A stretch of 64,000 nucleotides of DNA. Source: Roseisalinus antarcticus. Lineage in GTDB: Bacteria; Pseudomonadota; Alphaproteobacteria; Rhodobacterales; Rhodobacteraceae. Shown here one piece after another: positions 1,717 to 50,345 of the stretch. Each line of letters begins with the position of its first letter. The stretch's first letter is position 1. Location: the NCBI RefSeq assembly GCF_900172355.1, contig NZ_FWFZ01000006.1:124001-188000 (forward strand), in the 5' to 3' direction. The translations under genes were made by a program, and so were the position numbers. Under the pieces are notes generated by a model. It was not told where the DNA came from, ran no database searches, and saw only the letters and a program-made list of their open reading frames with translations.

Positions 1717-2187
1717 CTAGCGCCGGGTCAGATCGACGACCGAGGTCTCTTCGGTCCCCGCACGGGTCTGGCGGGTCGTCGCGATGCGCAGGCCGTCGCC
1801 GTCCAGCGGCACGAACTGGACCGCGGCGGTCTCGCCGTCTGCCGTGCCGCGCAGGGTCAGCGCGTTGTCGTCCGGCGTGCCGGTCAGCTCTTCGATCCTT
1901 GTGGTGGTGTTGGGCTCCACCCCTTGGCCGCGGGCGATCACGCTGCCATCGGGCTGAGGGGTCAGCAGCAGGCCGATCTCGATCCCGCCTTCGGGGATCG
2001 CGCAGCGGCCGGTGACGAAGGTGGCCGCGCCCTGCGGCTCCAGCGAGATGCGGCAGCGGATCGCGCCAGTGGTGCCGCCGCGCAGCATCTGGCCCGCCCC
2101 CTGCCAGTCGCCGTGCTTGGTGGTCACATCGAAGGCGGCCGCGGCGGGGGTGGCCAGACACAGGACGGCGAGGGCTGCACGGATCAT
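1717..2187 (-). CDS. Small exported protein, third gene of the pump cluster
   Basis: This encodes 156 residues with a clear Sec signal peptide (MIRAALAVLCLATPAAAAF, cleavage likely after AAA-A near residue 18). The mature protein is all-beta in character, with two Cys (in RCRIS and GRCAI) that could form a disulphide in the periplasm. Its ATG overlaps the stop of the MMPL transporter gene by four bases (ATGA, 2184-2187), so the two are translationally coupled and it is probably an accessory subunit of that pump. I do not recognise a family. Seen: signal peptide, overlap, Cys pair. Inferred: periplasmic accessory role. Confidence 0.65.
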   Translation of the reverse strand: MIRAALAVLCLATPAAAAFDVTTKHGDWQGAGQMLRGGTTGAIRCRISLEPQGAATFVTGRCAIPEGGIEIGLLLTPQPDGSVIARGQGVEPNTTTRIEELTGTPDDNALTLRGTADGETAAVQFVPLDGDGLRIATTRQTRAGTEETSVVDLTRR

Positions 2188-26300: not shown

Positions 26301-29300
26301 GCGATCCGACCAGCAGCGCCTCGGTCATCAACCCCGACAATTACAGCGTCGTCGGCGCCGGCGGCGGCAGCGTGGCGCCGGTGGCCGTGCTCTATGACGC
26401 GACCTCGCGCACGGTCCTGCTCAAGTTCTCGAACCTGCCGGCGGACGACTACACGGTCACCGTCTCGGAGGACGTGACCTCGCTCTACGGCCTGCGGATG
26501 GGCACCGCGTATGAGACCGCCTTCCGCGGCCTCGACGATCTGTCGTCCACACTGGGGATCGAGTTCACGCGCACCCGGTTCGACCGCGCCACGGGCGTCG
26601 TGTCCTACGAGGTCGTGCTGACCAACCTGTCGGAGGGCGACATCGTGCTGCCCGCCCTGCTGACGCTGGATCCGCGCCGGGGCTACGAGGGCGTGCCGGT
26701 GGCCGCTGACGGGCAGACCGACGACGGCCTCTGGCTGATCGACCTCAGCGCCGCGCTGCCCGCCGACGGCCGGCTGGGCCCGGGCGAGGGCACCAGCGGC
26801 GTGACCGTGGGCATCGCCACCCCGGGCCGCCAGCGGGTGCAGTTCTCGACCGGCGTCGTCGCCGCGGGCCTGCCCAACGCCGCGCCCGTCTTCGTGTCGG
26901 AGCCGCCGACCCAGGCGAGTGTCGGCGAGGCGCTGATCACCAATGTCCTGGCGCTCGACCCGGACGGCAACTCGATCATCTACAACCTGCTCAGCGGCCC
27001 CGAGGGCATGACCCTCGATGCCACCTCCGGCCAGCTTGCCTGGACCCCGGCCGAGGGCACCGCCAGCGAGGTTCCCGTCGTCGTCCAGGCCTTCGACGCG
27101 CGGGGGGCGGTGACGCTCCAGCGTTTCGTGGTCAGCGTGGCGGGCGGCAACGAGGCGCCGGTCTTCCTCAACGCGCCGACGGAATTCGAGGTCGCCGAGG
27201 GCGGCGTGGTCGAGTTCGACGTTCTGGTGACCGATCCCGACGGCGACGACATCGTCACCTGGATGGACGACATGCCCGACGGCGCGATCTACGACAGCGC
27301 GCTGCGCCGGTTCAGCTGGGCCACGGGGTACGAATCCGCGGGCACCCACACCCTGACCCTGCGCGCGAGCGACGGGCTGCGCGAGGTCGCCATCAACGTG
27401 GCGATCCGGGTGGCCGAGGCCGCGCAGCCGGTCTCGCTCAGCGTTCCGGCCCGGTCGATGACCGTGACCGAGGGCGACCGCATCCGTTTCAACCTCGGGG
27501 CCGAGGCCGACCCCGGCACACCGCTGACCTTCGGCAATTTCAACGCGTCGCTGCCGTTCGGCGCCTCGCTGAACGCGCTGACGGGGGAGTTCGAATGGAC
27601 CCCGGGCTATACCCAGGCGGGCACCTACGAGGTGCTCTTTGCCGTGTCCGACGGCAACGGCGTGGCGCTGCAGCCGATGACCATCGAGGTGACCGAGGGC
27701 AACGGCGCGCCGGTCTTCGACAATCTCGACGGGCTCAGGGTCTACGAGGGCCAGCGCTTTGCCGTGCGGCCCTTCGCCTTCGACCCCGACAACCCGGAGT
27801 ACGAGCCCGGCATCCGGCTGCCCGACGGCACCGTGATGCAGAACGATGCGGTGCCGAAGACGGTCGAGATCGAGCTGCTGACCCCGCTGCCCGAGGGCGC
27901 CACCTTCGACACCGAGACCTGGGCGCTGGAATGGGTGCCCGGCGCGACCCAGGCCGGGACCTATACCTTCCGCTTCCGCGCCACGGATGACGGGGCCGAG
28001 ACCGGCAATCCGATCAGTGTCGAGACCGAGGTCGAGGTCGAGGTGCTGGACCTCAACCTGGGGCCGGAGCTGCCCGATTACGGCAACGTCACGCTCGCCC
28101 GCGACGAGGTGCTCGAGATCGAGGTCGCGACCCAGGACCCCGAGGGCGACCCGGTCACGCTGCAATTGTTCAACGAGCAGCCGGGCATCCCTCTGCCCGA
28201 TTTCATCACATTCACCGACCGCGGCGACGGCACCGGCGTGATCCGCATCGCCCCCGGCGTCTGGGACCGGGGCGACCATCCCGTCAGCCTGGTGGCCTCG
28301 GACGACGGCGGCGGGCAGGGCGTGCTGCGCGGCGACATCCGCACCTTCGTCATCACTGTCGAGAGCGACAACGAGCCGCCGCAGTTTGCCTATCGCGGCC
28401 CCGTGGTGGGGGTCGTGGGCACCCAGATGTCGGTCGAGATCGACGCCACCGACCTCGACGGCGACGACCTGACCTTCGACCTCGCCGGCCTGCCGCCCGG
28501 CGCGGTGCTGAGCATGGATCCGTTGATCTATGGTCGCGCCACGCTGACCTGGACGCCCACGGCCGCCAACGTGGGCAGCCGCACCGCCACGATCACCGCG
28601 ACCGACACCGGCAATTCCGGCCTGACCGACCCCGGCAGCACCCAGTTGCAGTTCACCGTCGCCGTGCGCACCGCCAACGCGGCACCGGTGCTCGACCCGC
28701 TGGGCACGCTCAAGGGCACCGAGAGCGAGGCCTTCTCGCATACCTTCGGCGCGAGCGATGCCGATGGCGACGGGCTGACCTTCACCGCCGAGGACCTGCC
28801 CGCCGGGGCGCGCTTCGACCGCCAGACCGGCACGCTGGACTGGACCCCGACCAGCGTCCAGGCGGGCAGCTACACGATCATCGTGACCGCCAGCGACGGC
28901 AACGCCGAGAGCACCGAGGAGGTGCTGATCGAGATCGACGAGACCAACCGCGCCCCGGTCTTCGTGCCGATGATCACCCAGCTCGGCCGCGACCGGGCCG
29001 AGCTGCGGTTCAGCCTGGCCGTGGCCGACCCCGACGGCGACCCGGTCATCCTGTCGGCACTGTCGACGCTGCCCGAAGGCGCGGCCTTCTCGGATGAGCG
29101 CGGAGAATTCGTCTGGATCCCGCAATACGACCAGTCCGGGCAGTATTCCCTGCGCTTCGCCGCCCAGGATCCGTCGGGCCTGTCCGACGAGATCGTGGTG
29201 CTGATCGACATTGCCGACGTGAACCGCGCGCCCGAACTCGCCGCCTCCGACCGGGCCTTCCTGATCGGCGAGCCGCGCAGCTTCACCCTGGAATCGAGCG

Positions 29301-32300
29301 ATCCCGACGGCGACACGCTGGAATTCAGCGCCGTGAACCTGCCCGACGGCGCGGTGCTCGACAGCGCCACCGGAGAGGTCACCTGGACCCCCGGACCGGG
29401 TCAGGATGGCGATTATTACGTCACCTTCCTCGCCTCCGACGGCAGCCTGACCGACCGCCAGACCATCGTGATGCGCGCCTCGCTGGAACGCCAGGAACCC
29501 TCGGTGCGGATCGAGCTTACGCCCAGCTTCCCGGCCGTGCCGGGCCAGTCGGTGCTGGTGCAGGTGGTGGCCGACAGCCTGTCGGACATCACCGATGTGA
29601 CGCTTTACGTGGACGGCGTGGAACAGGCGCTCGACGCGCAGGGCCGCGCCTACGTGACCCCGACGAGCCCGGGCAAGATCGCGCTTCGGGCAACGGCGCT
29701 CGATGCCGACGGGATCGAGGGCGAAGCGCTGCTGCCGATCAAGGTGCGCGACCCGTCCGACCGCTCGGCGCCGGTGGCCATCATCGACCCGCTGCTGGGG
29801 CTGGGGCCGATCTCGGGCGTGCAGGGGATCGAGGCGGTCGTCGCCGACGCCAACCTCGACACCTGGACGCTCGAACTTCTGAACCGGGCGGGCACCACCG
29901 TGCTGTCGGTGCTGGGAGAGGGCGAGGAGCCCGCCGCCGGCACCCTGGGAGAGCTCGACACCCGGCGGCTGCTCAACGGTCTTTACAAGTTGCGGCTGAC
30001 GGCGACGGACATCGGCGGGCGGCTGGTGCGCGAGACCGTCAACATCGAGGTCAAGGGCGCCGACAAGACCGGCCGCTACCTTGAGGAGGTCGTCGATTTC
30101 AGCGTCGATCTAGACGGGATCACGCTCGATTTCGCGCGGCGCTACGACAGCCTGTCGGGCGGCGGGGCCTTCGGCCTCTGGAGCGCGGGGCTCGAAACCG
30201 ACATGACGATCGAGGCCGGCGAGACCGGCCGCGAGGGTCTGGGCGTCCACGCGGCGCTGAAAGCCGGCGCACGGCTTTATCTGACGGCGCCGGACGGCAC
30301 GCGGCTGGGCTTCACCTTCCGCCCCGAGCCCGAGCAGGTCGGCAACCTGACCTTCTACGTCCCGGCCTGGGTCGCGGACGCGGGGCAGGGCGACTGGTCG
30401 CTGACCTCGTCCGAGACCTTCCTGCGCAAGTCGGGCGGGGCCTTTTACACGGTCGACGACGGCTTGCCCTACAGCCTGAAGGACCCGGTCGTGGCCGGCG
30501 TGCAGCCCTATGTCCTGACCTCGGGCGACGGGCGCAGCTACGTGCTCGGCTCTTCGGGCCGGGTGCAGGAGATCCGGCAGGACGGCAAGCGGCTCTTTGT
30601 CAGCGACAGCGGGATCACGGCGACCAACGGCGACGCCATCAGCTTCCTGCGCGACCAGGGCGGGCTGATCGGCCGGATCACCACGGCGGACGGCCAGGCC
30701 TTCGTCTACACATACGATGGCGCGGGGCGGTTGACCTCCATGCGCGCGCTCGAGGACGGGACCGGCTACCGCTACGGCTACGACGGCCCGTTCCTGACCC
30801 TGTCCTCCGAGATCGAGGGCACGGGCCGCGCGATCAGCTACCTGCCCGAGGTCACCACCACGCCGGTGATCGCCGACCTGGGCGGGCTGGTCTCGCTGAC
30901 CGGCTCCCCGGTCACGGTGGGCGCCGGCACCGCGACCTATTCGATGTTCATCCGCGACAGCGAGATCGCCGGCGCCGCGGGCGGCCGGATGATCCTGCGG
31001 CTGGCCATGTCGGACCCGGATGCCGAGATCCGCCTCGGCGGGGCGGACCTGCTGTCGACCGAGTCGACCGCCGACGGGGTCGTCGCGCTCTTTGCGGTGC
31101 GCACCGGCGGGCTGAAGCGGCTGGAGGTGGAGACCGCGGGCGGCGGGACGCTCGACATCTCCGTGGGCGGCGACCTCACGCGCGACGGCAAGGTCGACGG
31201 CGACGACAGCAGCGCGCTGAACGCCGGTTCCCCGGACGGCGACATCACCGGCGACGGCGTGGTCAATGTCGACGACCGCGGCGTGCTGAACGTCAACTTC
31301 GGCGTCCGGCCGAACCTCGCGCCCGTGGTGGCCGAGACTTTGCCCGAGGTCTTCACCCACGAGGAACTGGCCGTCTTCGTCCCGCTGAGCGACATCGCGA
31401 GCGATGAAGAGGGCGACGATATCTTCTTCCGCGTGATCTCGGCCGAGAATGTCACCGCGACCTTCACCAGCGACGGCCAGCGGCTGCGCCTGACGCCGAT
31501 CGCGGGCTTCAGCGGTGCGGCGACGATCACGCTGATGGCCGACGACGGGTTCAGCTCCACGGGGCCGATCACGCTGGACGTCGATGTCTCGGATTCGCCA
31601 CTGCTGTCGCTCGATTTCGTCAAGCGGAACTACTATTTCGACGGCGTGGGCGAGATCGACCAGGTCCATGTCGTGGGCCAGTTCGGCGACCAGGCCGACG
31701 TGATCCTGCCGCTGGATTACGTCAACGCGCAGATCCTCGACCCCAGCCGCGTGACCCTGTCCTCGTCGGGCGTGTTGACCGCCAAGGCGGAGGGCACGAC
31801 CGCGGTCACGGTCTCGCGCGGGACGATCTCGGCCGGGACGGTCGTGGGGGTCGGCGTGGAATACGAGGGCCGCAAGGTGTCGTCGCTGATCTACGGCATC
31901 GATGCCTATCCCGACGACGTGACGATCCTGTCGGAGGGCGGCGAACGGCAGATTATCATCACCATCGGCGAGGACAAGGAGGAGAACTTCCAGGTCCAGT
32001 CCGCCGAGGATGGCGCGATCTACGTGGTGGGCGACGAGAGCATCGTGACGGTCACCGATGACGGGCTGATCAAGGCCGTCAGCGAAGGCACCACCACGGT
32101 CACCGCGATCTATGGCTACGGCGAAGAGACCATCGATGTGAAGGTCGCCGCCCCGATCGAGGGCAACACCGGCACCATTGGCGCCGAGGGCGGAGCCCTG
32201 CGCAACGAGGACGGGATCGTCGCGACCTTCGGGCCGGGGCAGTTGCAGGACGGCAGCGACGTCAGCCTGACCAAGCTCGACGAATCCGACCTTACCGTCG

Positions 32301-35300
32301 CGGTGCCTCCTGACTTCGAATTCGTGGCCGGGGCAGAGCTTTCGGTCACGGGCGATATCGACGGCCCGATCCAGTTCGCGGCCCCCGTGGACAGCAGCGT
32401 GGCCCAGGCGGGCGACGAGGTCGCGTTCTTCGTCCTGATGGATCATTCCGAGGTCACCCAGGGCGAGGTCGGCGAAATGTGGACGCTGGTCGACAGCGGC
32501 ACGGTGGGCGAGGATGGCCTGGCCCGGACGGCCTCGCCGCCGTTCCCGGGCCTGTCGGAGCGCGGCAGCATCATCGTCGCCAAGGTCAACCAGAAGATGG
32601 ACCTGGTCGGCATCAAGTTCCAGCAGGCGATGAAATCGGCGCTGATCGTCGCCGGCGGCGTCGCCATCGCTGCGGGCATCGCGACCCTGTCGGGAAGCCT
32701 GCTGGGCGGGATCGCGGCGGTCGGCATCGCGGGGGCGGCCGTGGGCTGGGCGGCCTACACCTACTGGGGCGACGAACGCATCCAGGAGATCAACGTCTAC
32801 AGCGACTGGGCGGGCAAGTTCACCAAGGACACGTTCAACGTCGAGAAGCAGCCTCTCGCCAAGGCGATCGACATCACCGGCAACATCACCGACCCGCGCC
32901 CGGACGTACTGGATACGCGGCCGCAGGTGACCCGCATCGTAGGCTTCAACGAGACCGCGGAGAAGCCCTCGATCCTGGTCGAGGGCCGCAACTTCCTGAA
33001 CGTCGACGGCTTCGGCTCCAATCCCAGGGATCTGCGCGTCGTCTTCGAGATGGGCAATTACCGCAAGTATGTCTACGGCGGGGCGTTCACCAACGTCGTC
33101 AATGGCGGCCAGACCGACGTCAGCTCCTTCGTGGTCGAGTTGCCCGACGACATCCTCGTCAGCCGGGCGCAGATCTATGTCGAGCGGCCCGGCCGCGGGG
33201 CCACCGCCGCCGGCGACGGGACCTGGGTGCTGCCCGCGCCGATGGCCCGGTCCTCGGCCTTCACCGTTGCCAATACCGTCGGCTACGGCATCGTCGGCGG
33301 CGTCGATCTGGATGACGGCTACGCCGCCCGGGTGGAGCTCTTCAACGTGCAGCCCTCGGGCTATACCGGCGAGCAGAACGTGACCGAGTTCATCACGCTG
33401 CTGAACGGCACGAACAAGATTTTCGGCCGGGTCATCGACACCGCCATGGCCTCGGATCTGTCGGCCGCCTACGTGGCGACGCCGGAAGGCATCGCGATCA
33501 TCGACATGCTGCGGCTGCGGCAGTTCGACCCCGACCCCGATGCCGCCGGCCTGCAGCTGATCGAGATCCCGGACGTGGGCATGAGCCAGGAGATCGTGCT
33601 CGATCCGCAGGGCAATTTCCTCTACGTGGCAGGGCTCGGCAAGATCTTCACCATCGACCTGCGGCCCGGTTCCTCGACCTATCTGCAGCAGATGCCCAAG
33701 GTCGCGCTGCAGATCCCGGCCGAGGCCGCGCAGCGCACCGGCGGCCAGATCAACGGCATCGAGATCAACGCCGACGGCACGCTGCTCTATGTGGCGGTGC
33801 CCTACGGCAACATGCTGGGCGACGAGGGCTGGCTGAACGGGCCGGGCCAAGAGGGCATGATCCACGTGATCAACGTCAACCAGGACCACCGTCCGCCGGG
33901 CGGTCAGGCGGGCGGCGAGAACCATTACTTCGAGGATTTCTACCAGATCCCCGCCGGGGTCGACCCCTATGACATCGCCGCCACCGCGGATCCCGACAAG
34001 CTCGTCTTCGTCTCGCGCGGGGATGCCCGCGAAGGCTTCCGCACGATCCATGTGACGCGGAACGAGCCCAAGAACTTCGACGTCGACGTGAACCGGCTCG
34101 ACCCGCCCCCGGGCGACAATGGCGGCACGCGCCGCCGGCTGCAGCTCAACCAGGGCGCGGTCGGGGTGAAATACGTGCCGGACTCGTTCTCCGCCTTCGG
34201 CGGCCGGCTCTATGTCGACCTGTCCTACTACGACCGGCTGTCGAGCCAGTATTTCGACCTCGACATCTGGAACCCCAGCGCCGTCGCGGTCACCCCGGAC
34301 GGGGGCTATGCCTTCGTCGCGGATTACGAGGTGTCGCGCTACTTCAAGCTGCCCTCCGAGATGGCCTACGAGATCGAGCTGCGCCATTCGCTCGGCTCCA
34401 AGGTCGGCCTGATCCGCAACCCGTTCGAGATGAGCCTGGGCGAGTGGACCGAGAACGAGATCATCGGCGTCCACGATCCGGTCGGCAAGCTCGAGAGCGC
34501 CTCGAGCCCGGTCCCGATGCAGTTCATCACAGAGCTGGAGATGGCCCCGGGCGGCAAGGTCCTGTTCGCGAATTACCGCGGCGCCGGCAACATCGTGAAC
34601 TTCAACATCGAGAACTGGGCGATCAAGTCCTTCAACCGGGCGCTGAACCGCGAGATTCCGATCGACCGGACCGAGGACCGGGAGATCGACAACCCCGCCT
34701 CCGCGCCGATCTACGGCGATCCGATCGACGTGTTCCGCTATGCCCGCGGCCTCTCGGTGCAGATGGTCACCGGGCTGGAGCTGCGCGCGCCGCGCGGCCA
34801 GGTGCAGGTGCACGGCGAGGACCCCGACGAGCTGGTGCTCGAGGCGATGATCGACACCGACCGCGCCGACCTCCAGTTCTGGACCGGCAACTTCTTCCTC
34901 TCCGGGCTCCAGCCCGGACAGGGTCTGTTTCCGACCGATCCGGTGCGGCCCCGGGTGGGCAGCTCCGGCAGCGGCGACCCGGTCGACGGCAACCCCGGCC
35001 GGATCGTCGATACCCGCGCATCCGGCATTTCGCTGAAGTCCGGATACACCTACGAGCTTCTGGTCGACGGCACGATCAAGCAGGGCGCCAGGATCGTTCC
35101 CGAGGATGGCGATACCGCCAAGGCCAAGGACCTCCTGCGGCTCAGGATCGCGCCCGAGATCGCGCGGCTGCTGACCGGCGGGCAGACCTTCTACTGGGGG
35201 ATCGAGACCACGGGCTCGGTCAATGCCAAGGGCTCCACGGCGATCAGCACCCTGCCGGCGCCGACCACCAGCCGGTTCAGCACGGTGACGGTGCTGACCC

Positions 35301-38300
35301 ACGGCTTCGCGCTGAATCCGCTGCCCGACTATGCCAACACGGCGATGAACGAGGACACGCTGGGCGAATGGCTGGCCTATGCCGAGCTGATGTCGACCGC
35401 CCAGGGCGGCGGCGAGATCCTCGTCTACAATCGGCAGACCGGCCTGTTTCACCGCTATGACAAGCAATTGGCCCAGGGCAAGCGGATCGACCGGACCGAG
35501 GCGTTCGACATCAACACGATCGAGCAGGGGAAATCGGTCACCATCGTCGCAGACTGGTACCGCGAGAGCGACATCACCGACACCGGCTATGCAGAGGCCG
35601 CCGCCGACGCGCTGTTCGCATCGCTCGTGCATCTCAACCGGCTGAGCGGCGCCAACCTCTTCAACAGCCCGCTGCATTTCATCGGCCACGGGCGCGGCGC
35701 GGTCGTGAACTCCGAGATCATCCAGCGCCTGGGTCTGAATTTCACCCAGGACATGGACATCCACATGACCACCCTGGACCCGCACGATTTCGGCCAGGCC
35801 ACGCTCGATTTCCCGGCCATCGACACCATCAACAACTACCTCTCGGCGGCCAAGCTCGCGGCGGGCATCACGGGCGTGTTCTATCCGCCGGCCTTCACCG
35901 TCGTGAACGCGCTGGGCAAGGTCGAGACGTTCGTCAGCAAGTTCTCGGACATCGTGAAATTCGTCGGTCTCAACCTCAAGCCGATCGCGTTCGGCGATTT
36001 CGTCGATCCCAATGTCTATGTCTGGGACAACGTCGATTTCGCGGACAACTACTTCCAGACGTCGGCCCCGGAATCCCCGGCCAATACCAATACTTTCGCG
36101 GGCTATTTCAAGCAGAAGCTCTCGGGCTTCACCCAGGTCACGACCCAGAACGGCCGCTCGCTTGTCGACACCTCGAAGGATTCCAAGGAACCGGTTCCCA
36201 CGGTCATCGGCGTCCCGAACGTCGAGATCAACTTCACCGCCGGCAAGGTGCCGGGCTTCGTCAACTCCGACTTCATGGGCACCCCCCACGACCGCGTGGT
36301 GACCTGGTACCTGGGGACGGCCGACGTCACCTCGCTCGACCTCAACCAGGAGATCGTCTGGCGCAGCGCGGGCGACGAGGGCACGATCGTCGGCGCCACC
36401 ACGGGGGCGCGCAGCTATCAGTACATCACCCGCTACCTGTCCGAAGAATATTCCAAGCTGCCCTGGTATGGGGTCAGCTCCGCGGCCACGACGATCCCGA
36501 CCTTCAATTCGGTCTACTACAGGAACTACCACGTCCAGGCGCAGAAGGACCGGATCAACTGGCAGGGCGTCAAGGGCTATGCCATCACCGAGGCGATCGG
36601 CTCGGGGTATTACTTCGCGACCACCGGCGGCGGTGAACCCTATCGCCCCGAACCCGGCAACGCGGCCAAGACACCGGTGATCTTCGACAACACCGGGGTC
36701 GGCTACACCAAGCCCGATCCGGGCCAGGCGGCCAAGAAGACCGATCCCTATCCCACCGTATTCAACGGCGATTTCGAGCACGGGACCAAGATGTCCGGGC
36801 TGGAATACTTCAAGTGGCTGGTCAGCGTCCTCTACAACACCATCGACACCGGCGCGGCGGTCCAGGACGGCAAGATCAAGGGGCCCGACGGCAAGCCGCA
36901 ATACGGGTTCAAGGCGCTGCTGAGCAACATCAGCGTGCCCGACCTTGGCAAGGGCCTCGGCCGGTTCCCGCTGCATTACGACGTGCCGGGCTGGTCGATG
37001 CACGGCGGCATCGACCAGGGCGTGGGCGACGACGAGGACGAGGGCTATTCCTACGCGATCCGCCTGTTCGACGATTTCATACCGCTGCTGTCGGGTCCGG
37101 TGGACGTCACCGGCTGGTTCATGGTCAACACGAATTTCTACAAGGAAATCGTCGATGTCATGAAGCTGGTGCTGCGCCCGACGATCGGCAAGCTGGTCGA
37201 AAGCGCCGTGACCAAGGTCGGCTCGAACGAGCGGGTCGAACAGGCCCGCGACAGGGATCCCGCCTTCGTGAAACAGGAACGCGAGGCGTTCCTCGACCTG
37301 CGCGGGCTGAAGGAAGTGCCCAACGGCTTCGGCGGCACGAAGGTCGTCGATGCGGATGGCAAGACCACCATGTCCAGCACGGAACTCGACACCGTGATGG
37401 ATTTCTTCTTCGACAACCTGGAATCGATTGATCCGGTGTCGGCGCTCTATGACTTCATCATGGCCCGGATCAAGCAGGCGAAATTCCTCGAGCCGCTCGA
37501 CCCGCCGCCCAACCTGCGGGCCATCGCGAACTTGCCCGCCGGCAGCCTGGCGCGGACCCAGGCCGTCAACGCCGCCTCCGACTGGATCTTCGACACCTTC
37601 ACCAAGGGGGTGGCCTATCTCTTCGACAAGCTGGTCGACGGCCAGCCGGCCACCGACCTGATCGGGGGCACCGATTACGCCCTCCTGATGGGCGGATCGA
37701 GCTTCGTGAAGAACCTGATCGGCGTCTTCCTGCCCGATATCGAGAGCAAGTATCTGGGCACCGACGAAAACGGCAAGCCGATCTCGCTGGAAGACCTGTT
37801 CCAGGACGCGTTGGATTCCGTCGCCCAGCTCGACAGCGTCACGCACAACCGCCTGTATTACCCGCAGAACATGAATTTCGTCGAAGCCGAGGTCATGATC
37901 CCGCTGGCGCTCAACGATTCCATGGCGCTGGAGGCCGAGTTCCGCAGGCTCGACGGCCGGACCTTCACCGCCGAGCCGGTCAGCCTCGGGACGGCGATGT
38001 TCACCAAGCGCAAGGTGCACTTCGCGATTCCGCCCGAGATGAAGGGGTGGAGCGGCAGCCTCACCATCCGCCAGAAGGACGCCGAGCCGTTCACCGACCT
38101 GGTCAACGACCCGGCGAACAACATCCTGGAGCAGACCGGGTATGTCTTCGCCGAACTGGGCGACGACATCCTCTCGGCGCTCAGCTCGCTCATGCTGATC
38201 GACGATATCAAGCTCGTCGGCTCCAGCAACCAGACCGCGGCCGAGACCGGGGCAGGGGCCGAGGCCGTGACCCTGGCCGAGGCGCGGGCCGTCGCCGAGG

Positions 38301-41300
38301 CCGCGGCCGGCATCTGGGCCGACAGCGGGCTGGTGGTCGGGGCCGGCCTGCAACTCGCCGATCTGGAGATCGTGGTGGGCGATCTGGGCGATGGCGTGCT
38401 GGCGACCTGGGAGAACACCACGATCACCGTCGATACCGATGCGGCCGGGATGGGCTGGTTCGTCGATGCGACGCCGCGGGACGCCTCCGAATTCGGCGCG
38501 GGCGCGGCGCCCCACCTGTTCCGGGCCGAAAGCGGCGCGGCCGCCGGGCGCTACGACCTGCTGACCGTGCTGCTGCACGAGATGGGCAACGCCCTGGGAT
38601 TGCAGGACATTCCGGTGACCGACGCGGGCACCTTCACGATGACCACGGTGCTTGAGACCGGATCGCGGCGGCTGCCCACACAGGACGACGTCACGCCGTT
38701 CCTGTCGCTTGGCACCGGCGAGGACTCCCTCGACGGCTTCAGCCTGCTCGACCCCTCCGCCGAGCTTCTGACGGACGAGGGGCCTGCGGCGGCCGCGGCG
38801 GCTGCGCCCTTCGACCTGCTAGCCGGTCCGGCCGAGGATTTCGGTAACGGACGCTTCGACATTCCGCTTGCCGATCCCGCCGGGCGCTGGGAGACGAGCG
38901 GCGATGTCGCCATCGTTTCGGCCAGCGCCGTGATGGACGAGGGCGCCAGCGAGATGAGCGGCCTGGTGCAGACTTTCGCGCTGCCGGCCGAGGCGACGGG
39001 GCTTCAGTTCACGCTCAGCGATATCCGCCTGACCGCGCCCGGCGACACAGCGCCCGATGCCTTCGAGGTCGCGCTGTTCAATGCGCATACCGGCGACCGG
39101 GTGCTGGGCGACATGGCCGGGCTCACCGGCTCTGACGCGGTGCTCAACATCCAGAGCGACGGGTCGCGCTTCGTCTCGGCCGGCGTCACCATCGAGGAAC
39201 AGCCGGGCGGCACGCTGCTGGTCACCATCGATTTCGGCGGGCTGGCCAGCCGGCCCGACGCGCTGCGGCTGGGGTTCGACCTGATCGGGATGGGCGATCT
39301 CGACAGCTCGGTCGCCGTGGACAACGTGCGCCTTCTGGGGACCTCCACCAACGCCGCGCCCGTCGCGGCGGACGATGTCTTTGCCCTGTTCGAGGACACG
39401 CCGGGCATCCTCGACATCCTCGCCAACGACACCGATGCCGACGGCGACCAGGTCTATGTGGCCAGCTTCACCCCGCCCGCCGAGGGCACGCTGGAGCCTG
39501 TGGGCGACGGCACCTGGCGGTTTGTTTCGCCGGCAGACGCCTCGGGCACCTTCACCTTCACCTACACCGTGTCGGACGGCCTGGTGGAGAGCGGGCCCGC
39601 GACGGTCGTCCTCAATGTCGCGGCCGTCAACGACCTGCCGGTCATGGACCCGATCGCCGACGTGAGCCTCGGCGCCGGCGTGCAGCTGTCGGTGACCGCC
39701 ACGGCCAGCGACCTGGAAACCGCGCCGGCCGACCTGCGCTATGCGCTGCTGTCGGCACCCGCCGGCGCCTCGATCGTGGCCGAGACGGGCGCGATCTCGT
39801 GGGATACGACCGGCAACCCGGGCGAGCACGTGTTCCGCGTCCAGGTGGACGATGGCGACGGTGGCCTCGACGACGTGAGCTTCACCGTGGACGTGGTCGG
39901 CGACCTGGTGCTGACCGAGGTGTCCGACCGGGTGGTGGCCGAAGGCGCCCCCATCGACGTGACCCTGCAGGCGCTGCTGCGCGGCGGCCCGGCCAGCGGA
40001 TTGACCTTCGGCAAGCTGGCCGAGACCCCCGACTGGATCACCATCGACCCGGCGACCGGCGCGATTTCCGGCGACACCAGCGCCCGCAGCGGCAGCTATA
40101 CCCTGCGCTATTCCGTCGAGGACGGCGAGGGGAACCGCGACACCGCGAGCTTCGCCCTTCGGGTGGCCGCGGCCCCGGTCATCGACGGGCTGAGCGACCG
40201 TACCCTGGCCGACGGCCAGCCCCTGCTGGCGCAGGCGACGGCGACCGATGCCGACACCCCGGCCGGGGACCTGGTGTTCTCGAAGGTCGCGGGGCCGGAC
40301 TGGATCAGCGTCGATCCGGTCACCGGCGTGGTCTCGGGCGATACCTCGGGGCAGGCGGGCACCGCCGATCTGACGGTGGCGGTGGCCGATCCCGACGGGC
40401 TGTCGGACCAGGTAACCGTGACGCTGACAATCCAGGCGGTGCCGGTCTTCGATCCGATCCCGACGCTGACCCTCTCCGAAGGCGATGTCATCGACATCCC
40501 CGTGCTGGTCTCCGATGCGGACAGCCCCGACGAGGATCTGGTGATCGAGGTGACCGACGGGCCGGGTTGGATCGGCTACGGCAGCCTCAGCGGCACCCTG
40601 ATCGGCGACAGCACCGGCCAGGGCGGCGAGTTCGAGGTCACTCTGACCGCGACCGACCCCGACGGCAACACCGGCACGCTGACCGTGCGGGTCATCGTGC
40701 AATCGGCCCCCGCCATCGTCGACCCGGACCCGCAGGTCCTGCTGGAGGGCGCGGCCCTCGACGTGCAGCTCGATGCGACCGACGCCAACGACCCGTTCGA
40801 GGACCTGACCTTCACCAAGGTCTCGGGGCCGGACTGGATTCAGGTCTCTACCGACGGGCGGATCACCGGGTCCACCACCGGGCGGCCAGGCAGCTTCAGC
40901 GTGACGATCCGGGTCGAGGACCCCGAGACCCTGACCGACACCGCGGTGCTGGACATCCGCGTGCTGGCAGAGCCGGAGTTCGTCGCCATCGCGCCGCGGA
41001 CCCTGCTGGAGGGCGCCGCCCTCTCAATGCCGGTGACGGTGAGCGATGGCGACACGCCGCTGGACGAGCTGACGGTGAGCCTCACCGACGGGCCGGCCTG
41101 GATCATCTACAACGCGACCACCGGGGCGCTGGAAGGCGACAGCACCGGCGAGGTCGGGGATTACAGCGTGACGCTGCGGGTCGAAGACCCCGAGGGCAAT
41201 TTCGCCACCCAGGTCGTCTCGGTCTCGGTCGAGGCCGCGCCGCTGCTGGCAGACCCCAGCGACGAGGTTCTGACCGCGGGCGACGCGCTGGCCGTGACGC

Positions 41301-43999: not shown

Positions 44000-44329
44000 A
44001 TGGCCAAGCCAGGCACACAGAACGGCAAGAAACAGGAGACGGGACCGCAGGCGGCAACCACGCCCGGGGCGGTGCCGCCCAACAAGGTCTCGTTCGACAC
44101 CTCGCAGCTCAAGAGCAGCTATTGCAACGTCTGCAACGGCTCGAGCACCCGCGAGGAAGTGGTCGTCAACTTCGGCGTGAACGAGAACTGGGATCTCGGG
44201 CGCGACAAGCTCGAGGTGCATCTGCACCACCGCATCGTGATGTCGCCCCACGCGGCCAAGCGGATGCGCGACATGATGAACCGCCTGATCGAAGAGCACG
44301 AGACGCGCTACGGCAAGCTTGAAGGCTAG
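44000..44329 (+). CDS. DUF3467-like small protein
   Basis: This encodes 109 residues, starting 10 bases after the stop of the giant gene. The N-terminus (about 28 residues) is Gln/Thr/Pro-rich and probably disordered. A compact domain follows with YCNVCNGSSTREEVVVNFG and a C-terminal helix with SPHAAKRMRDMMNRLIEEHE, the layout of DUF3467 proteins. There is no signal peptide, so it should be cytosolic. The function of the family is not known to me. Its place between the giant substrate and the export-type genes suggests a chaperone or regulatory partner; this rests on position only. Confidence 0.75.
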   Translation: MAKPGTQNGKKQETGPQAATTPGAVPPNKVSFDTSQLKSSYCNVCNGSSTREEVVVNFGVNENWDLGRDKLEVHLHHRIVMSPHAAKRMRDMMNRLIEEHETRYGKLEG

Positions 44330-44343
44330 GGCAGGGACGGACC

Positions 44344-46215
44344 ATGACTCTGTCCCGCGGCGCCCCATCCCCCGCCGACGCCGAGGCCGCCGAGGTCGTG
44401 GGCCTCACGGGCAGCGCCTGGGCCGCGTTCATGAACGCGGGCGGCGAGAGGGCCTTTCTGGCCACCTGGCTGGCGGTGCTGCTGGGCAAGATCCCCAACG
44501 CCGCCTTCGCGGTGGTGCTGGAGCCTGACGCCGCCACCGGGCGCCTGATGCCCGTGGCCGCGGCCCCCGACGTCCGTCGCGACCTGGCCTCGCTGCGCCC
44601 GATCACCGAGAAATGCGCCAACACGGGCCGCGCCGCCACCGCGACCGGCGAGGACGGGCTGGGCCACGTCGCCGTGCCCGTGCGGGCCAATGACGGCACG
44701 GTCACCGGGCTGGTGGTGCTGGAGCTGCGCGACGCCACCCCTGCGGGCCTGCAGGCCGCGATCCGCGAGATCCACTGGGCCTCGGGCTGGATCACCGCCC
44801 GGCACTGGGAGGGCCGCGCCGAGACCGAGGCGCAGCGGGTCGAACGGGCGGGCATCGCGCTCGACCTGCTGGCACTGGTCAACGAGCATCGCCGCCCCGA
44901 GGCCGCCGCCATGGCGCTGGTCAACGAGCTGCAGTCGATCCTGGCCTGCGACCAGGTCTCCATCGGGATGGTGCGGGGCCGGTCCAGTCCGCGTGTCCGG
45001 CTGCTTGCCATGTCCTATTCCGCCTGGTTCAAGCGCCGCTCCTCGCTGGTCGAGGGGCTGGAGAACGCCATGGACGAGGTGCTCGACCAGGGCGCCGCGG
45101 TGGCCTATCCGCCGACCGAGACGCTGGCGCGGGCGGTCTCCATCGCCCATGGCGACCACGTGCGCGGCAGCCAGACCAGCCACATCCTGTCGGTCCCGAT
45201 GCAGGACGAGGCGCGGACCGTGGGCGTGCTGACCGTCGAACGGCGCGAGGGCGCGGCCTTCGACGACCGCGAATTGCGCATCGCCCAGAGCGTCGCCGCC
45301 CTGATCGGGCCGGTGCTGGAGCTCAAGCGCCGCAACCGGCGCTGGATCGGCGGCCGGCTGGTCGAGAAGCTGGGCCATGCGCTGGGCGTCGTGCTGGGCC
45401 CCCGGCGGCTCAGCTGGAAGCTGCTGGCGGTGGGCCTGATCGCGCTGGCGGTCGCGGCGGCCACGGTGCGCGGCCCGTTCCGCATCTCCGCCGAGGCGGT
45501 GCTGCGCGGCGAGGTGCAGCGGGCGGCGGTCGCGCCTTCCCAGGGCTTCATCGCCGAGGCGCCGATGCGGGCGGGCGATCCGGTGGCCGCGGGCGACCTG
45601 CTCGCGCGGCTGGACGATCGCGACCTGCGCCTGGAAGAGCTGCGCTGGACCTCCGAGATCGACCGGCTGGTGGCGCAATCGCGCTCGGCGCTGGCCGAGG
45701 GCGCGCGCGAAGAGGTCGCCTATCTCGAGGCCCAGGTGCGTCAGGCCCGCGCCCAGAAGGCGCTGGTCGACGCGCAGCTTGCCCGGACCGAGATCCGTGC
45801 GCCGTTCGACGGGCTCATCGTCTCGGGCGACCTCAGCCAGCGGCTGGGCGCACCGGTGCAGCAGGGCGAGGTCCTGTTCGAGATCGCGCCGCTCGACAGC
45901 TACCGGGTCGAGGTCTTCCTGGACGAGCGCGACCTGCGGTTCGTGACCGAAGGGATGGAGGGCCAGCTGATCCTGAAAAGCCGCCCCGATGACGGGCGCG
46001 GCTTCCGGATCACCCGGATCACCCCGGTGTCGGAGACCCGCGAAGGCGCCAACACCTTCCTTGCCGAGGCGGAGCTGACCGGCCCCATCGCCGAGCTGCG
46101 CCCCGGCATGGAAGGCAGCGCCAAGGTCGAGGCGGGCCGGGCGCTCTATGTCTGGAGCTGGACGCGGCGGCTGCGCGACTGGCTGCGGCAGACGATCTGG
46201 AACTGGCAGCCCTGA
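44344..46215 (+). CDS. GAF-domain / HlyD-type adaptor fusion, inner membrane
   Basis: This encodes 623 residues, starting 14 bases after the previous stop with AGGGACGG upstream. Residues 1-165 form a GAF-like region I assign weakly. Residues 169-335 form a clearer GAF domain (ALVNELQSILACDQVSIGMV, then LSVPM and GVLTVERREG). A single membrane helix lies at 360-375 (LLAVGLIALAVAAATV). The periplasmic part is HlyD-like: lipoyl halves around VAPSQGFIAEAPMRAGD and IRAPFDGLIVSGDL flank a coiled coil, followed by a barrel domain (YRVEVFLDERD). A cytosolic sensor joined to a membrane-fusion adaptor would let export respond to an internal signal. The next gene starts one base after its stop. Confidence 0.8.
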   Translation: MTLSRGAPSPADAEAAEVVGLTGSAWAAFMNAGGERAFLATWLAVLLGKIPNAAFAVVLEPDAATGRLMPVAAAPDVRRDLASLRPITEKCANTGRAATATGEDGLGHVAVPVRANDGTVTGLVVLELRDATPAGLQAAIREIHWASGWITARHWEGRAETEAQRVERAGIALDLLALVNEHRRPEAAAMALVNELQSILACDQVSIGMVRGRSSPRVRLLAMSYSAWFKRRSSLVEGLENAMDEVLDQGAAVAYPPTETLARAVSIAHGDHVRGSQTSHILSVPMQDEARTVGVLTVERREGAAFDDRELRIAQSVAALIGPVLELKRRNRRWIGGRLVEKLGHALGVVLGPRRLSWKLLAVGLIALAVAAATVRGPFRISAEAVLRGEVQRAAVAPSQGFIAEAPMRAGDPVAAGDLLARLDDRDLRLEELRWTSEIDRLVAQSRSALAEGAREEVAYLEAQVRQARAQKALVDAQLARTEIRAPFDGLIVSGDLSQRLGAPVQQGEVLFEIAPLDSYRVEVFLDERDLRFVTEGMEGQLILKSRPDDGRGFRITRITPVSETREGANTFLAEAELTGPIAELRPGMEGSAKVEAGRALYVWSWTRRLRDWLRQTIWNWQP

Positions 46216-46216: not shown

Positions 46217-48367
46217 ATGGCCGAGGCGTTCCTGTCGCGCATCTGGTATCGCGTATCCGGCCTGACGCCGCGCCTGCGCAGCCATGTCACCGTGCACCGC
46301 CACCGCTATCGCGGGCAGCCCTGGTATGTGCTGCAGGACCATTCCTCGGGCCGGGTGCACCGGTTCACGCCGGCGGCCTACATGGTCATGGGCCGGTTCG
46401 ACGGACAGACCACCATCGACCGGATCTGGAACGATCTGGCCGAGACCTATGACGCCGACGCGCCCAGCCAGGACGAGGTGATCCAGCTGCTGGCGACCCT
46501 GCACCAGAACGACCTGATCCAGCATGCGTCCAACCCCGACGTGGCCGACCTGCTGGAGCGCTACCGCAAGAAGGCGACCGAGGTCTGGAAGCAGAACCTG
46601 TCGAACCCGGTCTCGGTGCGGGTGCCGCTCTGGGATCCCGACAGGTTCCTGACGCGGACGCTGCCCGTGGTGCGGCTTCTGACCGGCTGGTGGGGCCTGA
46701 TCCTCTGGGCCGTGGTGGTCGCCTGGGGCGGTCTGGTGGGCCTGCAGAACTACGAGGCGCTGACCACCAATTTCACCGATCAGCTGTTGGGTGCCCAGAA
46801 CCTGATGATCTCCATCGTCAGCTACCCGCTGCTCAAGGCGCTGCACGAGCTTGCCCACGGCTATCTGACCAAGGTGCGCGGGGGCGATGTGCGCGAGATG
46901 GGGATCATGTTCCTGGTGTTCTTCCCGGTGCCCTATGTCGATGCCTCGGCGGCGGCCGCGTTCCGCAACAAGTGGCACCGCGCCGCCGTCAGCGCCGGCG
47001 GCATCATGGTCGAGACCTTCGTGGCCGCGCTCGCCGTTCTGGTCTGGGTGGAGTTGGAGCCCGGCTTCCTGCGGGCGGTCTGCTTCAACCTCATTGCCAT
47101 CGGCGGGCTGTCCACGCTGGTGGTGAACGGCAACCCGCTGCTGAAGTTTGACGGCTATTACGTCATGTCCGACCTGATCGAGAGCCCGAATTTCGGAACC
47201 AGGGCAAATCGTTACTGGGGCTATCTCATCCAGAAGCGGCTGTTCCGCGCCCGCCAGCTCAAGGCGCCCTCGGCGACCTGGGGCGAGAAGGTCTGGTTCA
47301 CCCTCTACGCGCCCGCGGCCCTGGTCTACCGGCTGGTGGTGATGATCGGGATCGCGCTCTTCGTGGCCGGAAAGTATTACTTCATCGGTATCCTGATCGC
47401 GGCGTGGAGCGTGTTCAACGCGGTGGTCAAGCCGATGTTCAAGCACATCCGCCACGTGCTGACCTCTCCGTCCCTGCGCAAGGTGCGCAGCCGGGCCAAG
47501 GCCTGGACCTTCGGCGGCATGGGCCTTGTCGCGCTGATCCTGCTGGCGCTGCCCCTGCCGCTGCGGACCGATACCGAAGGCGTGGTCTGGCTGCCGGAGG
47601 CCGCCCATGTCCGCGCCCGGGCGCCGGGATTCCTGCAGGGCTTCGACGTGGCGCGGGGGGCCGAGGTCGCGGCCGGCGCCCCGCTGGCCGCGCTGGAGGC
47701 GCCCACCCAGGACGCCCGGATCGACGCCCTGCGCTGGCGCAACATCGAATACGAGCGCCGGCTGTCGGTGCTGCAGATCCGCGATCGCGGCGGCGCCGAG
47801 CTCGCCCGGCTTGAGCTGGAGGAGGCCCGCGGAGAGCTTTCGCGCGAGTTGGCGCGGGTGGCCGACATGACCGTCCGCGCCCCCCTGGCCGGCCGGTTCG
47901 AGCCGGTATCGCCCGAGGGCGACATCCTGGGCCGCTTTTTCGCCGAGGGCGACCTGATCGGCTATGTCCTGCCGCCGCGCCCCGAGGTCCTGCGCGTGGC
48001 CGTGCCGCAGGCCGACATCGCCCTGGTGCGCGAGCGGCTGCGCGGGGTCGAAGTGCGCCTGGCCGGCCGGCTGGAGCAACGGCTGCAAACGCAGGTGCTG
48101 CGCACGGTGCCCCAGGCCTCGACCACCCTGCCGAGCGCGGTGCTGGGATCTGGCGGCGGGGGGCGATTTCTGACCGCGCCCACGGACGAGAAGGGGCTGG
48201 AGACGACGGAGCCGGTGTTCCTCTATGACCTCGCGGTGCCCGACGCCCTGGCCGACACCGGCTATGGCACCCGCGTGCATGTGCGCTTCGATCTGGGGAT
48301 GGAGCCCCTGGGCTTTCAGATCGGGCGGCGGGTGCGGCAGCTGTTCCTGGACCGATTCAATGCCTGA
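46217..48367 (+). CDS. PqqD-like + M50 site-2-protease-like + HlyD fusion protein
   Basis: This encodes 716 residues. I chose ATG 46217, one base after the upstream stop, over an overlapping upstream start. Residues 38-105 are PqqD-like, a fold used elsewhere to bind peptide leaders. The membrane part begins near 150 and carries HELAH at 210-214 and NGNPLLKFDGYY with N306 and D312, the full zinc-ligand set of M50 intramembrane proteases. From about residue 470, after another membrane helix, comes a HlyD-like periplasmic portion (GVVWLPEAAHVRARAPGFL, coiled coil, VRAPLAGRFEPV). It probably sits in the inner membrane and could cleave or hand over the giant protein. Its last codons overlap the next gene by eight bases. 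Confidence 0.85.
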   Translation: MAEAFLSRIWYRVSGLTPRLRSHVTVHRHRYRGQPWYVLQDHSSGRVHRFTPAAYMVMGRFDGQTTIDRIWNDLAETYDADAPSQDEVIQLLATLHQNDLIQHASNPDVADLLERYRKKATEVWKQNLSNPVSVRVPLWDPDRFLTRTLPVVRLLTGWWGLILWAVVVAWGGLVGLQNYEALTTNFTDQLLGAQNLMISIVSYPLLKALHELAHGYLTKVRGGDVREMGIMFLVFFPVPYVDASAAAAFRNKWHRAAVSAGGIMVETFVAALAVLVWVELEPGFLRAVCFNLIAIGGLSTLVVNGNPLLKFDGYYVMSDLIESPNFGTRANRYWGYLIQKRLFRARQLKAPSATWGEKVWFTLYAPAALVYRLVVMIGIALFVAGKYYFIGILIAAWSVFNAVVKPMFKHIRHVLTSPSLRKVRSRAKAWTFGGMGLVALILLALPLPLRTDTEGVVWLPEAAHVRARAPGFLQGFDVARGAEVAAGAPLAALEAPTQDARIDALRWRNIEYERRLSVLQIRDRGGAELARLELEEARGELSRELARVADMTVRAPLAGRFEPVSPEGDILGRFFAEGDLIGYVLPPRPEVLRVAVPQADIALVRERLRGVEVRLAGRLEQRLQTQVLRTVPQASTTLPSAVLGSGGGGRFLTAPTDEKGLETTEPVFLYDLAVPDALADTGYGTRVHVRFDLGMEPLGFQIGRRVRQLFLDRFNA

Positions 48368-50345
48368 CGGCGCGGGCCTCTGGGGGTTCGGGCCGGTCAA
48401 GCGGGCGCAATCGCCCTATGCCGAACGGGCCGACCCGATCGACAATGCGGTGGACCGCTGGCTGGATCGCGTGCTCGGCCAGATCGAAAGCCGGCTGCCG
48501 TTCCACCGCCGCCGGCTGCGGCGCAAGGCGGCCCGGATCGTGGCGCTGGAGCCGGACTATGCCAGGCTGAAGATGTCGGAGCTCGTGGCCCGCGCGCACG
48601 GGCTCGCCCGCGATACGCTGCGGCCCGGCAGGGCGGGCGACCTGCCGTTGATCCACCTGATGGCGGGGCTGCGGGAACTGGTGTTTCGCAAGCTGGGCAA
48701 GCGGCCCTATCCGGTGCAGATCATGGGGGCGCTGGCGCTTATGGAAGGCCGGCTGGTCGAGATGGCTACCGGCGAGGGCAAGACCCTGACGGGCATGCCC
48801 GCCGCCATCGCCGCCGCCCTGCGCGGAGAGCCGGTGCACGTGGTGACGGTCAACGATTACCTCGCCGCCCGCGATGCCGAGGAGATCCGCCCCCTGGCCA
48901 AGGCGCTCGGCCTCAGCGTGGGCGTGATCGAGACCGAGATGGACCCCTCCGCCCGCGCCGCGGCCCATGGCGCCGACCTGACGTATGTCAGCAATGCGAA
49001 CGTGACCTTCGATTATCTGCGCGACCGGGTGGCGCTTGGCCAGCGACGTGGCCCGGCGCGCAAATCCCTGCGCGACATGCTGGGCGGCGGCGGCAGCGCG
49101 GCGCTGACCCTGCGCGGGCTGGGGTTCGCCATCGTGGACGAGGCCGACAGCGTGTTCATCGACGAGGCGCGGACCCCCCTGATCCTGTCGACCACCGGCG
49201 ACGATGCCGCAGCCGCGGGCCGCTATGCCACCGGCCTGCGGATCGCCCGGGCGCTGGGCGAGGGGCGGCATTACACGCTCGATCAGATGGCGCGCAACGT
49301 GACGCTGACAGAGGCCGGCAAGGCCCGGATCGGGCAGGCGGCCGAGGGTCTGACCGGCCAGTGGCGGGTCAGGCTGGCGCGGGAAGAGCTGATCACCCAG
49401 GCGCTCTCGGCGCTGCATTTCTTCGAGAAGGGGCGCGATTACATCGTCGACGAGGGCGAAGTGCGCATCGTCGACGAATATTCCGGCCGGGTGATGCCGG
49501 ACCGGACCTGGCAGGGCGGCCTGCACCAGATGATCGAGGCGAAGGAGGCGCTGGAGGTCACCGGGGTCAAGATCACCCTGGCCAGCATCACCTATCAGCG
49601 CTTCTTCCGCCGCTACCTGCGGCTGGCGGGGATGACCGGCACCGGGATGGAGCTCGCCGGCGAGATCCGCCAGACCTACGGGTTGACCACGGTGCGGGTG
49701 CCGCGCCACCGCCCGTTGCAACGGCTGCACGTCGGCACGCGCTTTTGTCGCGACGACGTGGCGCGCTGGAAGGCGGTGGTCGCCCGCGTGGCCCAGGTCA
49801 ACGCGCGGGGGCGGCCGGTGCTGGTCGGGACCCGCTCGGTCGAAGCATCCGAGCGGCTGTCGCAGGTGCTGGACGAGGCCGGGCTGGCGCACAGGGTACT
49901 GAACGCGCGGCAAGACAGCGAAGAGGCCGCGATCGTCGCCCAGGCAGGGGCGCGCGGGGCGATCACGGTGGCCACGAACATTGCCGGCCGGGGCACCGAT
50001 ATCGGGCTGGGCCAGGGGGTGCGCGAGCTGGGCGGCCTGCACGTCATCCTGACTGAATTCCACGAAAGCAGCCGCATCGATCGCCAGCTCTACGGCCGGG
50101 CCGGGCGGCAGGGAGATCCTGGCACGACCGAGGCGGTGGTGTCGGTGACCGACGAGCTGTTCGTGCGTTTCGCCCCTGGCCTGCAAAAGGTCGCGGCACG
50201 GGTGCGGACGCCGTGGCTCTGCCATCTGATGCGGCTTTGGGCCCAGGCGCGGGCGGAGCGGGAACACGCGATCACGCGCCGCGAACAGGTGGAGCTCGAC
50301 AAGCAGTTGGAGAAGTCCATGGCCTTCGCCGGCGTCCGAGAATGA
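48360..50345 (+). CDS. Short SecA-like ATPase (SecA paralogue)
   Basis: This encodes 661 residues from ATG 48360, which overlaps the preceding gene by eight bases; an earlier in-frame start is buried in that gene. SecA motor motifs are intact: Walker A ATGEGKT (136-142), VNDYLAARDAE (164-174), Walker B DEAD (260-263) followed by SVFIDEARTPLI, then ATNIAGRGTD (538-547) and GRAGRQGDPG (579-588). After the second nucleotide-binding domain only one long helix remains (to 661). The helical wing, most of the scaffold and the zinc-binding tail of housekeeping SecA (about 900 residues) are missing. It is therefore a specialised paralogue. As last gene of the operon it would energise export of the giant protein, by inference. 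Confidence 0.85.
   Translation: MPDGAGLWGFGPVKRAQSPYAERADPIDNAVDRWLDRVLGQIESRLPFHRRRLRRKAARIVALEPDYARLKMSELVARAHGLARDTLRPGRAGDLPLIHLMAGLRELVFRKLGKRPYPVQIMGALALMEGRLVEMATGEGKTLTGMPAAIAAALRGEPVHVVTVNDYLAARDAEEIRPLAKALGLSVGVIETEMDPSARAAAHGADLTYVSNANVTFDYLRDRVALGQRRGPARKSLRDMLGGGGSAALTLRGLGFAIVDEADSVFIDEARTPLILSTTGDDAAAAGRYATGLRIARALGEGRHYTLDQMARNVTLTEAGKARIGQAAEGLTGQWRVRLAREELITQALSALHFFEKGRDYIVDEGEVRIVDEYSGRVMPDRTWQGGLHQMIEAKEALEVTGVKITLASITYQRFFRRYLRLAGMTGTGMELAGEIRQTYGLTTVRVPRHRPLQRLHVGTRFCRDDVARWKAVVARVAQVNARGRPVLVGTRSVEASERLSQVLDEAGLAHRVLNARQDSEEAAIVAQAGARGAITVATNIAGRGTDIGLGQGVRELGGLHVILTEFHESSRIDRQLYGRAGRQGDPGTTEAVVSVTDELFVRFAPGLQKVAARVRTPWLCHLMRLWAQARAEREHAITRREQVELDKQLEKSMAFAGVRE

Follow-up and report, generated by a model that had tools for sequence, protein, structure and literature searches.

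A five-gene set ending in a short SecA

The window analysed here is a 64,000-nucleotide stretch of Roseisalinus antarcticus (contig NZ_FWFZ01000006.1, positions 124,001 to 188,000), and it carries a one-strand set of five genes encoding, in this order, a LEPR-XLL giant protein, a DUF3467 protein, a GAF-HlyD protein, a PqqD-M50-HlyD protein, and a short SecA. The genes are spaced by 9, 14, and 1 bases, and the last two overlap by 8 bases. The final gene (48360..50345, + strand) translates into 661 aa and a stop, and encodes a short ('secondary') SecA_DEAD protein made up of nucleotide-binding domain 1 (NBD1), the PPXD, nucleotide-binding domain 2 (NBD2), and then a tail of ~50 residues matching the start of the scaffold helix. 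Its Pfam scores (SecA_DEAD, 298.5 bits; SecA_PP_bind, 87.8; P-loop_SecA, 174.2) all exceed the cut-off. All four ATPase motifs checked are present on the + strand: Walker A GEGKT (residues 138-142, 48771..48785), the DEAD box or motif II (residues 260-263, 49137..49148), motif V TNIAGRGTDI (residues 539-548, 49974..50003), and motif VI GRAGRQG (residues 579-585, 50094..50114). Across 20 aligned sequences, G138-K141 of Walker A are invariant and T142 is nearly so. Both nucleotide-binding domains are intact, as stated in a preliminary description of this DNA.

The same description had the protein terminate at 661 residues soon after GRAGRQG, without the helical wing and zinc tail, and this also holds. 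The motif is followed by 76 residues, against 331 in the full-length SecA of the same genome, and in an alignment to the latter (895 aa as called) the short protein ends approximately where the helical wing starts. Wing, two-helix finger, remaining scaffold, and zinc tail are accordingly missing, with the SecA domain borders placed where we take them to lie. The wing/scaffold model is not among the five families listed in the Pfam scan of the protein. Its tail aligns with the beginning of the long scaffold helix of SecA, from which the 'one long helix' suggested to follow motif VI may fairly be predicted. A longer frame from ATG 48225 (706 aa) is an alternative; the start at 48360, with its overlap of the upstream M50 stop, is favoured because many relatives begin with a similar overlap and have a similar length.

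The first gene (5366..43990, +) encodes a surface-type protein of 12,874 aa, the proposed cargo. Near its N-terminus lies the motif FEPRILLSAD (5528..5587, +), a putative export or sorting signal, which matches NF012209 above the curated cut-off (30.6 bits, cut-off 17) and places the giant among the LEPR-XLL proteins. Counted from the called start at 5444, its first 60 residues are nowhere strongly hydrophobic (the highest mean over 15 residues is 1.41). The DUF3467 protein (44000..44329, +; 109 aa; PF11950, 62 bits, cut-off 25) is possibly a chaperone; its AlphaFold model is poor (mean pLDDT 55.9), and a profile search of solved structures returned one weak match (E 0.12). It is followed by a 623-aa protein (44344..46215, +) with a GAF domain, one membrane helix by hydropathy, and then an HlyD adaptor domain.

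The gene directly upstream of the short SecA (46217..48367, +; 716 aa, or 739 aa from a possible start at 46148) combines a PqqD-like domain (residues 37-101, 46325..46519, +; PF05402, 33.1 bits, cut-off 23.4), an M50 (S2P-like) membrane domain with the zinc-site motif HExxH (H210, E211, H214; 46844..46858, +), and an HlyD-like adaptor domain. Among 30 members of this M50 family, PqqD was recognised in 22, Peptidase_M50 in 27, and HlyD_3 in 23; HExxH is present in 76 of 78 M50 proteins, the two others being called as 488-aa pieces. The AlphaFold model (mean pLDDT 86.2, pTM 0.65) has an adaptor-like C-terminal part, similar to MacA (3fpp_A, Z 14.1, rmsd 4.7 over 227 residues) and MexA (1vf7_A, Z 13.8, rmsd 5.1 over 217 residues). 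Fold searches with the model mainly return HlyD-type adaptors at residues ~445-703 and hardly cover the membrane part. The protein resembles the daptide HExxH membrane protease family NF041824 over 357 of 379 profile positions (residues 41-421 of the 739-aa version), but its 139.9 bits lie below the cut-off of 300, and it differs in the HlyD-like domain that follows and in the adjacent SecA.

No ABC match was obtained in the operon, where four genes were scanned whole and the giant over ~9,000 of its 12,874 aa, distant ABC genes not being sought. A small HlyD-type adaptor (4425..5201, -), whose homologues often follow the short SecA at other loci, lies divergent from the giant's operon. It adjoins an MMPL-family (MMPL/RND) membrane protein (2187-4301, -) with a weak SecD/SecF match, of which no relative was found among the genes called in the compared loci. 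Downstream of the short SecA, the window also holds a protein at 57163-58863 (+) whose C-terminal part presumably resembles a Hint domain.

A separate family of short SecA proteins

The genome of R. antarcticus (G000) yields five SecA_DEAD matches: one full-length SecA (C80, 914-aa frame), so that a second, full-length secA does accompany the gene of the window, and four short ones on contigs C70 (that of the window), C106, C39, and C110. A scan of genome contigs gave 125 relatives, 80 of which were kept; they come mostly from Proteobacteria, with single representatives of Nitrospirae, Nitrospinaceae, Rokuibacteriota, and Desulfohalobiaceae. All four ATPase motifs are kept in 78 of the 80 (the exceptions are L015, which is frame-broken, and L079, whose motif VI is a variant). 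Most uncut members measure about 630-690 aa. The gene is therefore not broken, and a truncated secA is ruled out as an explanation by the intact motifs and the similar length of relatives. Variants of motif V were seen in L207 (G229:C5), L104, and L105, and of motif VI in L125 and L117. L193 lacks a recognisable Walker A only and is not counted among the ATPase-dead versions discussed below; L156, L196, and L204 are cut fragments of SecA. Some GC-rich loci of the wider comparison (L113, L117, L130, and L139) were read by six-frame searches.

In a quick tree whose housekeeping SecAs come from Pseudomonadota only and which holds no actinobacterial SecA2, a branch with support 100 separates the 31 housekeeping SecAs from the 53 short and five ATPase-dead ones. 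The short SecA also misses the housekeeping models TIGR00963 (536.3 of 800 bits) and NF009538 (545.8 of 814 bits). It thus shares NBD1, PPXD, NBD2, and the four motifs with housekeeping SecA, but differs in its missing domains and its position in the tree. A canonical accessory SecA2 was rejected, as four models (TIGR03714, TIGR04221, TIGR04397, and NF012136) score 372-477 bits against cut-offs of 725-1100. Like SecA2, the protein is an additional paralogue next to a full-length SecA; unlike it, it lies under all curated cut-offs, is more truncated, and has HlyD and M50 neighbours.

These neighbours were counted in 85 loci selected by SecA (the 80 kept relatives, the window, and four others from the genome of R. 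antarcticus, one of which, L089, is the housekeeping locus), where contig ends account for part of the misses. An M50-family gene lies directly upstream of SecA in 78 of the 85, and a GAF-HlyD/HlyD cluster gene two upstream in 71. Other neighbours are the small HlyD (50 loci), DUF3467 (22), the OEP family (20), and SapC (9). DUF3467 usually stands directly upstream of GAF-HlyD and has a conserved TREE motif. The SapC-family (PF07277) gene recurs beside the module in L042, L049, L099-L101, L118, L124, and others. In some SecA/M50 loci a ShlB/FhaC-type POTRA outer-membrane protein adjoins the small HlyD (L120, 13087-15156; L136, 3033-5129; L155, 13038-15104) and is perhaps an alternative outer-membrane channel. 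A further gene family lies upstream of the module in gammaproteobacterial L074, L079, L080, L082, and L083, its member in L074 being an HDOD-domain protein.

With a SecA_DEAD domain, SecA_SW absent or present as a fragment, a clade separate from canonical SecA in the quick tree, and GAF-HlyD, M50-HlyD, and HlyD neighbours, the protein belongs to the secondary SecA_DEAD proteins. The main text of Kamneva, Poudel & Ward (2015; PMC4452313) describes such proteins without wing-scaffold as a clade related to actinobacterial SecA2, with GAF-HlyD, Peptidase_M50-HlyD, HlyD, and sometimes OEP as neighbours, and proposes SecA as the ATPase and M50 as the pore of a type I-like locus; the broader role is termed 'completely unknown' there and no cargo is named. 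Truncation, clade, and M50/HlyD/GAF neighbourhood of this type of SecA were thus on record by 2015, and the present locus is alike in all three. Among the bacteria with such a locus, that paper names Methylobacterium extorquens AM1. The words LEPR, giant, PqqD, DUF3467, and Walker are absent from that main text. Added here are the LEPR-XLL linkage, DUF3467, the PqqD domain, and variants in which SecA is absent or dead. In searches of open-licence PMC papers, neither a LEPR-XLL cargo link nor an optional or dead SecA was found in print; two further papers that these searches returned mention LEPR-XLL once each, one of them PMC10868602.

Linkage to LEPR-XLL giants

In the own genome, the four NF012209 matches over the cut-off lie on the same four contigs as the short SecAs. 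On three of these contigs (C106, C70, and C110), no more than 2.1 kb separates the end of the giant's frame from the M50 gene. On C39 (G000:C39:36278-70500; L087, L109) the LEPR-XLL frame is split, and more long same-strand frames extend towards the SecA module in convergent orientation, which suggests one giant with frame breaks, due to assembly error or real decay. LEPR-XLL was detected in none of 14 control genomes at E 0.01; at a loose E of 10, seven of the 14 also match NF012209, one of them above the cut-off.

We surveyed 292 genomes of the order and 349 of the phylum, scoring the three best M50 candidates per genome, with the M50 gene of G000:C110 added by hand from L088. In Fisher tests that ignore shared ancestry, LEPR-XLL and the M50 profile co-occur in the order (21 and 31 genomes, 20 with both; p = 4e-22) and in the phylum (53 and 90, 51 with both; p = 7e-34). 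Sixteen genomes of the order have a short SecA in which both Walker A and the DEAD box are present (checked by reading, including ten order-level SecAs read after the length comparison), and 14 of these have LEPR-XLL (p = 5e-17); G158 and G291 have a short SecA without LEPR-XLL, and seven of the 21 LEPR-XLL genomes have no short SecA. Stronger evidence than these tests is the adjacency of the genes, which is seen in co-directional, divergent, and convergent arrangements: 22 of 26 LEPR-XLL frames in the order lie less than 4 kb from an M50 gene. The four elsewhere are those of G104 (14 kb), G000:C39 (27 kb, split), G140 (other contig, cut), and G182 (no M50). Among the 80 relatives, seven loci include the N-terminus of a large open-ended frame, and a LEPR-type motif was found by pattern in five of these (L023, L060, L071, L072, and L073; not in L079 and L083). 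The tree and the two surveys exclude a clade that is scattered or without link to LEPR-XLL genes; on the question whether this SecA forms its own clade with LEPR-XLL neighbours, the support-100 branch and the LEPR-XLL genes that travel along speak in favour.

A putative exporter and its alternatives

We consider it likely, at roughly two chances in three, that the short SecA is the cytosolic ATPase of a non-ABC, type I-like (HlyD/TolC-type) exporter serving the LEPR-XLL giant of its own operon. HlyD and OEP proteins form an envelope-spanning conduit; NBD1, NBD2, and PPXD are the polypeptide-clamping ATPase core of SecA; PqqD domains bind leader peptides; and M50 proteins are membrane proteins with a zinc site. 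The giant, which has no evident Sec signal peptide, would remain unfolded in the cytosol, perhaps with the help of DUF3467, and its N-terminal LEPR-XLL region would be recognised at the inner membrane, perhaps through the M50 protein's PqqD-like domain. With NBD1/NBD2/PPXD as its clamp, SecA would then push the chain by ATP hydrolysis into an M50-based inner-membrane unit, and the HlyD-type domains of three proteins, together with an OEP/TolC channel, would carry it over the periplasm and outer membrane. We infer recognition, feeding, and export from the gene set, the linkage, and the roles of the families. Housekeeping SecA uses the parts missing here for contacts with SecY and SecB, and the loss of the two-helix finger and the regulatory C-domain would be in keeping with a motor that has given up insertion into SecY. 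The system would resemble type I secretion (HlyB/HlyD/TolC, LapBCE) in its HlyD adaptors, its OEP/TolC partner in some loci, and its very large repetitive cargo. It has the HlyD-type adaptor typical of that class, but no ABC transporter to go with it was found in the scanned parts of its operon, which has instead a SecA-type ATPase, an M50 membrane protein, and an N-terminal LEPR-XLL motif.

Several observations weigh against this reading. M50/S2P proteins are not known to serve as channels for proteins, and the window yielded no OEP gene, other parts of the genome not having been searched. The co-occurrence tests do not correct for ancestry, and an M50 match without a LEPR-XLL match was obtained in 39 genomes of the phylum survey and 11 of the order survey, a few of which carry LEER/LEDR-type variants. 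A Vibrio LEPR-XLL giant is described in PMC10868602 as having C-terminal RTX domains, which would fit ordinary type I export.

Five SecAs, moreover, appear to be ATPase-dead: L102 (G031), L103 (G123), L150 (G301), L187 (G293), and L188 (G305) lack Walker A, DEAD, V, and VI, and are nonetheless open SecA-like frames of ~560-675 aa in the usual operon place (10810-12480 in L102, 6098-7810 in L103). G031 and G301 have LEPR-XLL frames of 5,359 or 8,407 aa and no intact short SecA was found in them, so that either the ATPase is dispensable there, or the housekeeping SecA helps, or these giants are not exported. The dead versions count against a simple model of SecA as an obligatory motor. LEPR-XLL-adjacent M50-HlyD loci without any SecA also exist (17-20 kb were examined per locus), some with large proteins bearing variants such as LEERILFDA, LEPRTMFDA, or LEDRIVLDA. 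They include LEPR-XLL frames above 5,500 aa in G393:C61 (5,517) and G391 (7,165), and SecA is therefore not universally required. The preliminary proposal that this motor acts on another channel or partner is supported in part: the lost SecY and SecB parts and the constant M50/HlyD neighbours agree with it, but at some loci SecA is absent or ATPase-dead.

SecA state is associated with frame length in 58 LEPR-XLL/M50 pairs on shared contigs, measured as stop-to-stop frames. LEPR-XLL frames span 4,161-15,434 aa beside an intact short SecA (median 9,513, n = 34), 5,359 to at least 13,412 aa beside a dead one (n = 4), and 1,093-7,165 aa where SecA is missing (median 3,432, n = 20). Loci with intact or dead SecA differ from those without (Mann-Whitney p = 2e-9; with one value per genome, 30 vs 18, p = 5e-8), a comparison whose points are not independent and in which length and clade are confounded, since SecA state tracks M50 clades. 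The SecA-bearing loci group together in the M50 tree on one side of a branch whose support is only 83 (62 rows). Two SecA-less rows, L138 (G604, 3,952 aa) and L146 (G470, 2,850 aa), fall inside this group and 21 outside it. Dropped from the comparison were split frames (G000:C39 and G580:C1:2384510), frames truncated at the end of a contig or located on a different one (G378:C407, G404:C9, and G140:C195), G182, which has no M50, and genomes with LEPR-XLL and M50 on separate contigs; G305:C17, cut by a contig end, was retained as a lower bound.

The dead versions bear most directly on a variant that overlaps with the motor reading, and to which we give only a minor share of belief, in which the exporter is the same but the main role of the short SecA is to clamp the unfolded giant in a structural or chaperone-like way, with hydrolysis helpful but dispensable and force coming from outside folding, the proton gradient, or the housekeeping SecA. 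It is favoured by the LEPR-XLL/M50 loci without SecA and by five dead versions that hold their operon place after at least two losses on the M50 tree (three by parsimony). In all five, identity to consensus columns is higher in PPXD than in NBD2 (30/19, 55/25, 32/7, 39/22, and 48/19 per cent; NBD2 and tail of L150 are mostly unaligned), unlike in the intact divergent L088, L104, and L119, where NBD2 (62-77 per cent) is kept equal to or above PPXD (57-77 per cent). The tail also persists in dead L102, L103, and L188 (53, 40, and 47 per cent). However, the first part of NBD1 (17-41 per cent in dead SecAs) equals PPXD in L102 and L187, so that retention is not PPXD-specific, and the four motifs held by 78 of 80 relatives argue that hydrolysis is usually under selection.

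Slightly less probable in our view is that the short SecA is a SecA2-like accessory working with SecYEG, in which case Sec would take the giant through the inner membrane, leaving only later steps to the M50/HlyD proteins. Gram-positive SecA2 proteins work with SecY, and PPXD is retained here. Actinobacterial SecA2 is, in addition, a related clade according to the main text of Kamneva et al. (2015; PMC4452313). Against these points stand the missing wing and two-helix finger, the largely lost scaffold, scores far under the SecA2 cut-offs, and the lack of a strong hydrophobic stretch in the giant's first 60 residues. Least probable among the rivals is a locus that processes or retains the giant, with the LEPR-XLL region serving the M50 protease as the place of retention or cleavage, while another system, for example a distant ABC-type type I system, exports the protein. 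N-terminal retention modules do occur in LapA-type adhesins, and the near-constant HExxH would suit a protease, but the presence of HlyD-type domains in three of the proteins, of OEP at some loci, and of an export-class ATPase together with the giant speaks against it, and no ABC gene lies between giant and SecA in the window.

A more tentative extension, which we think rather doubtful though less so than any of the three rivals, is a distinct class of giant-protein secretion that employs a SecA clamp independently of SecYEG. The PqqD-S2P-like protein would read LEPR-XLL and form the conduit with HlyD and an outer-membrane channel, and SecA would be a processivity clamp for the longest chains that may outlast the loss of its ATPase.

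It is poorly understood how bacteria move single chains of 5,000-15,000 residues out of the cell. Tying the locus of 2015 to LEPR-XLL giants makes its role directly testable and offers a function for the LEPR-XLL motif. The short SecA is a SecA-type protein that may operate away from SecY, and its ATPase-dead versions could separate the role of SecA as a clamp from its role as an ATPase.

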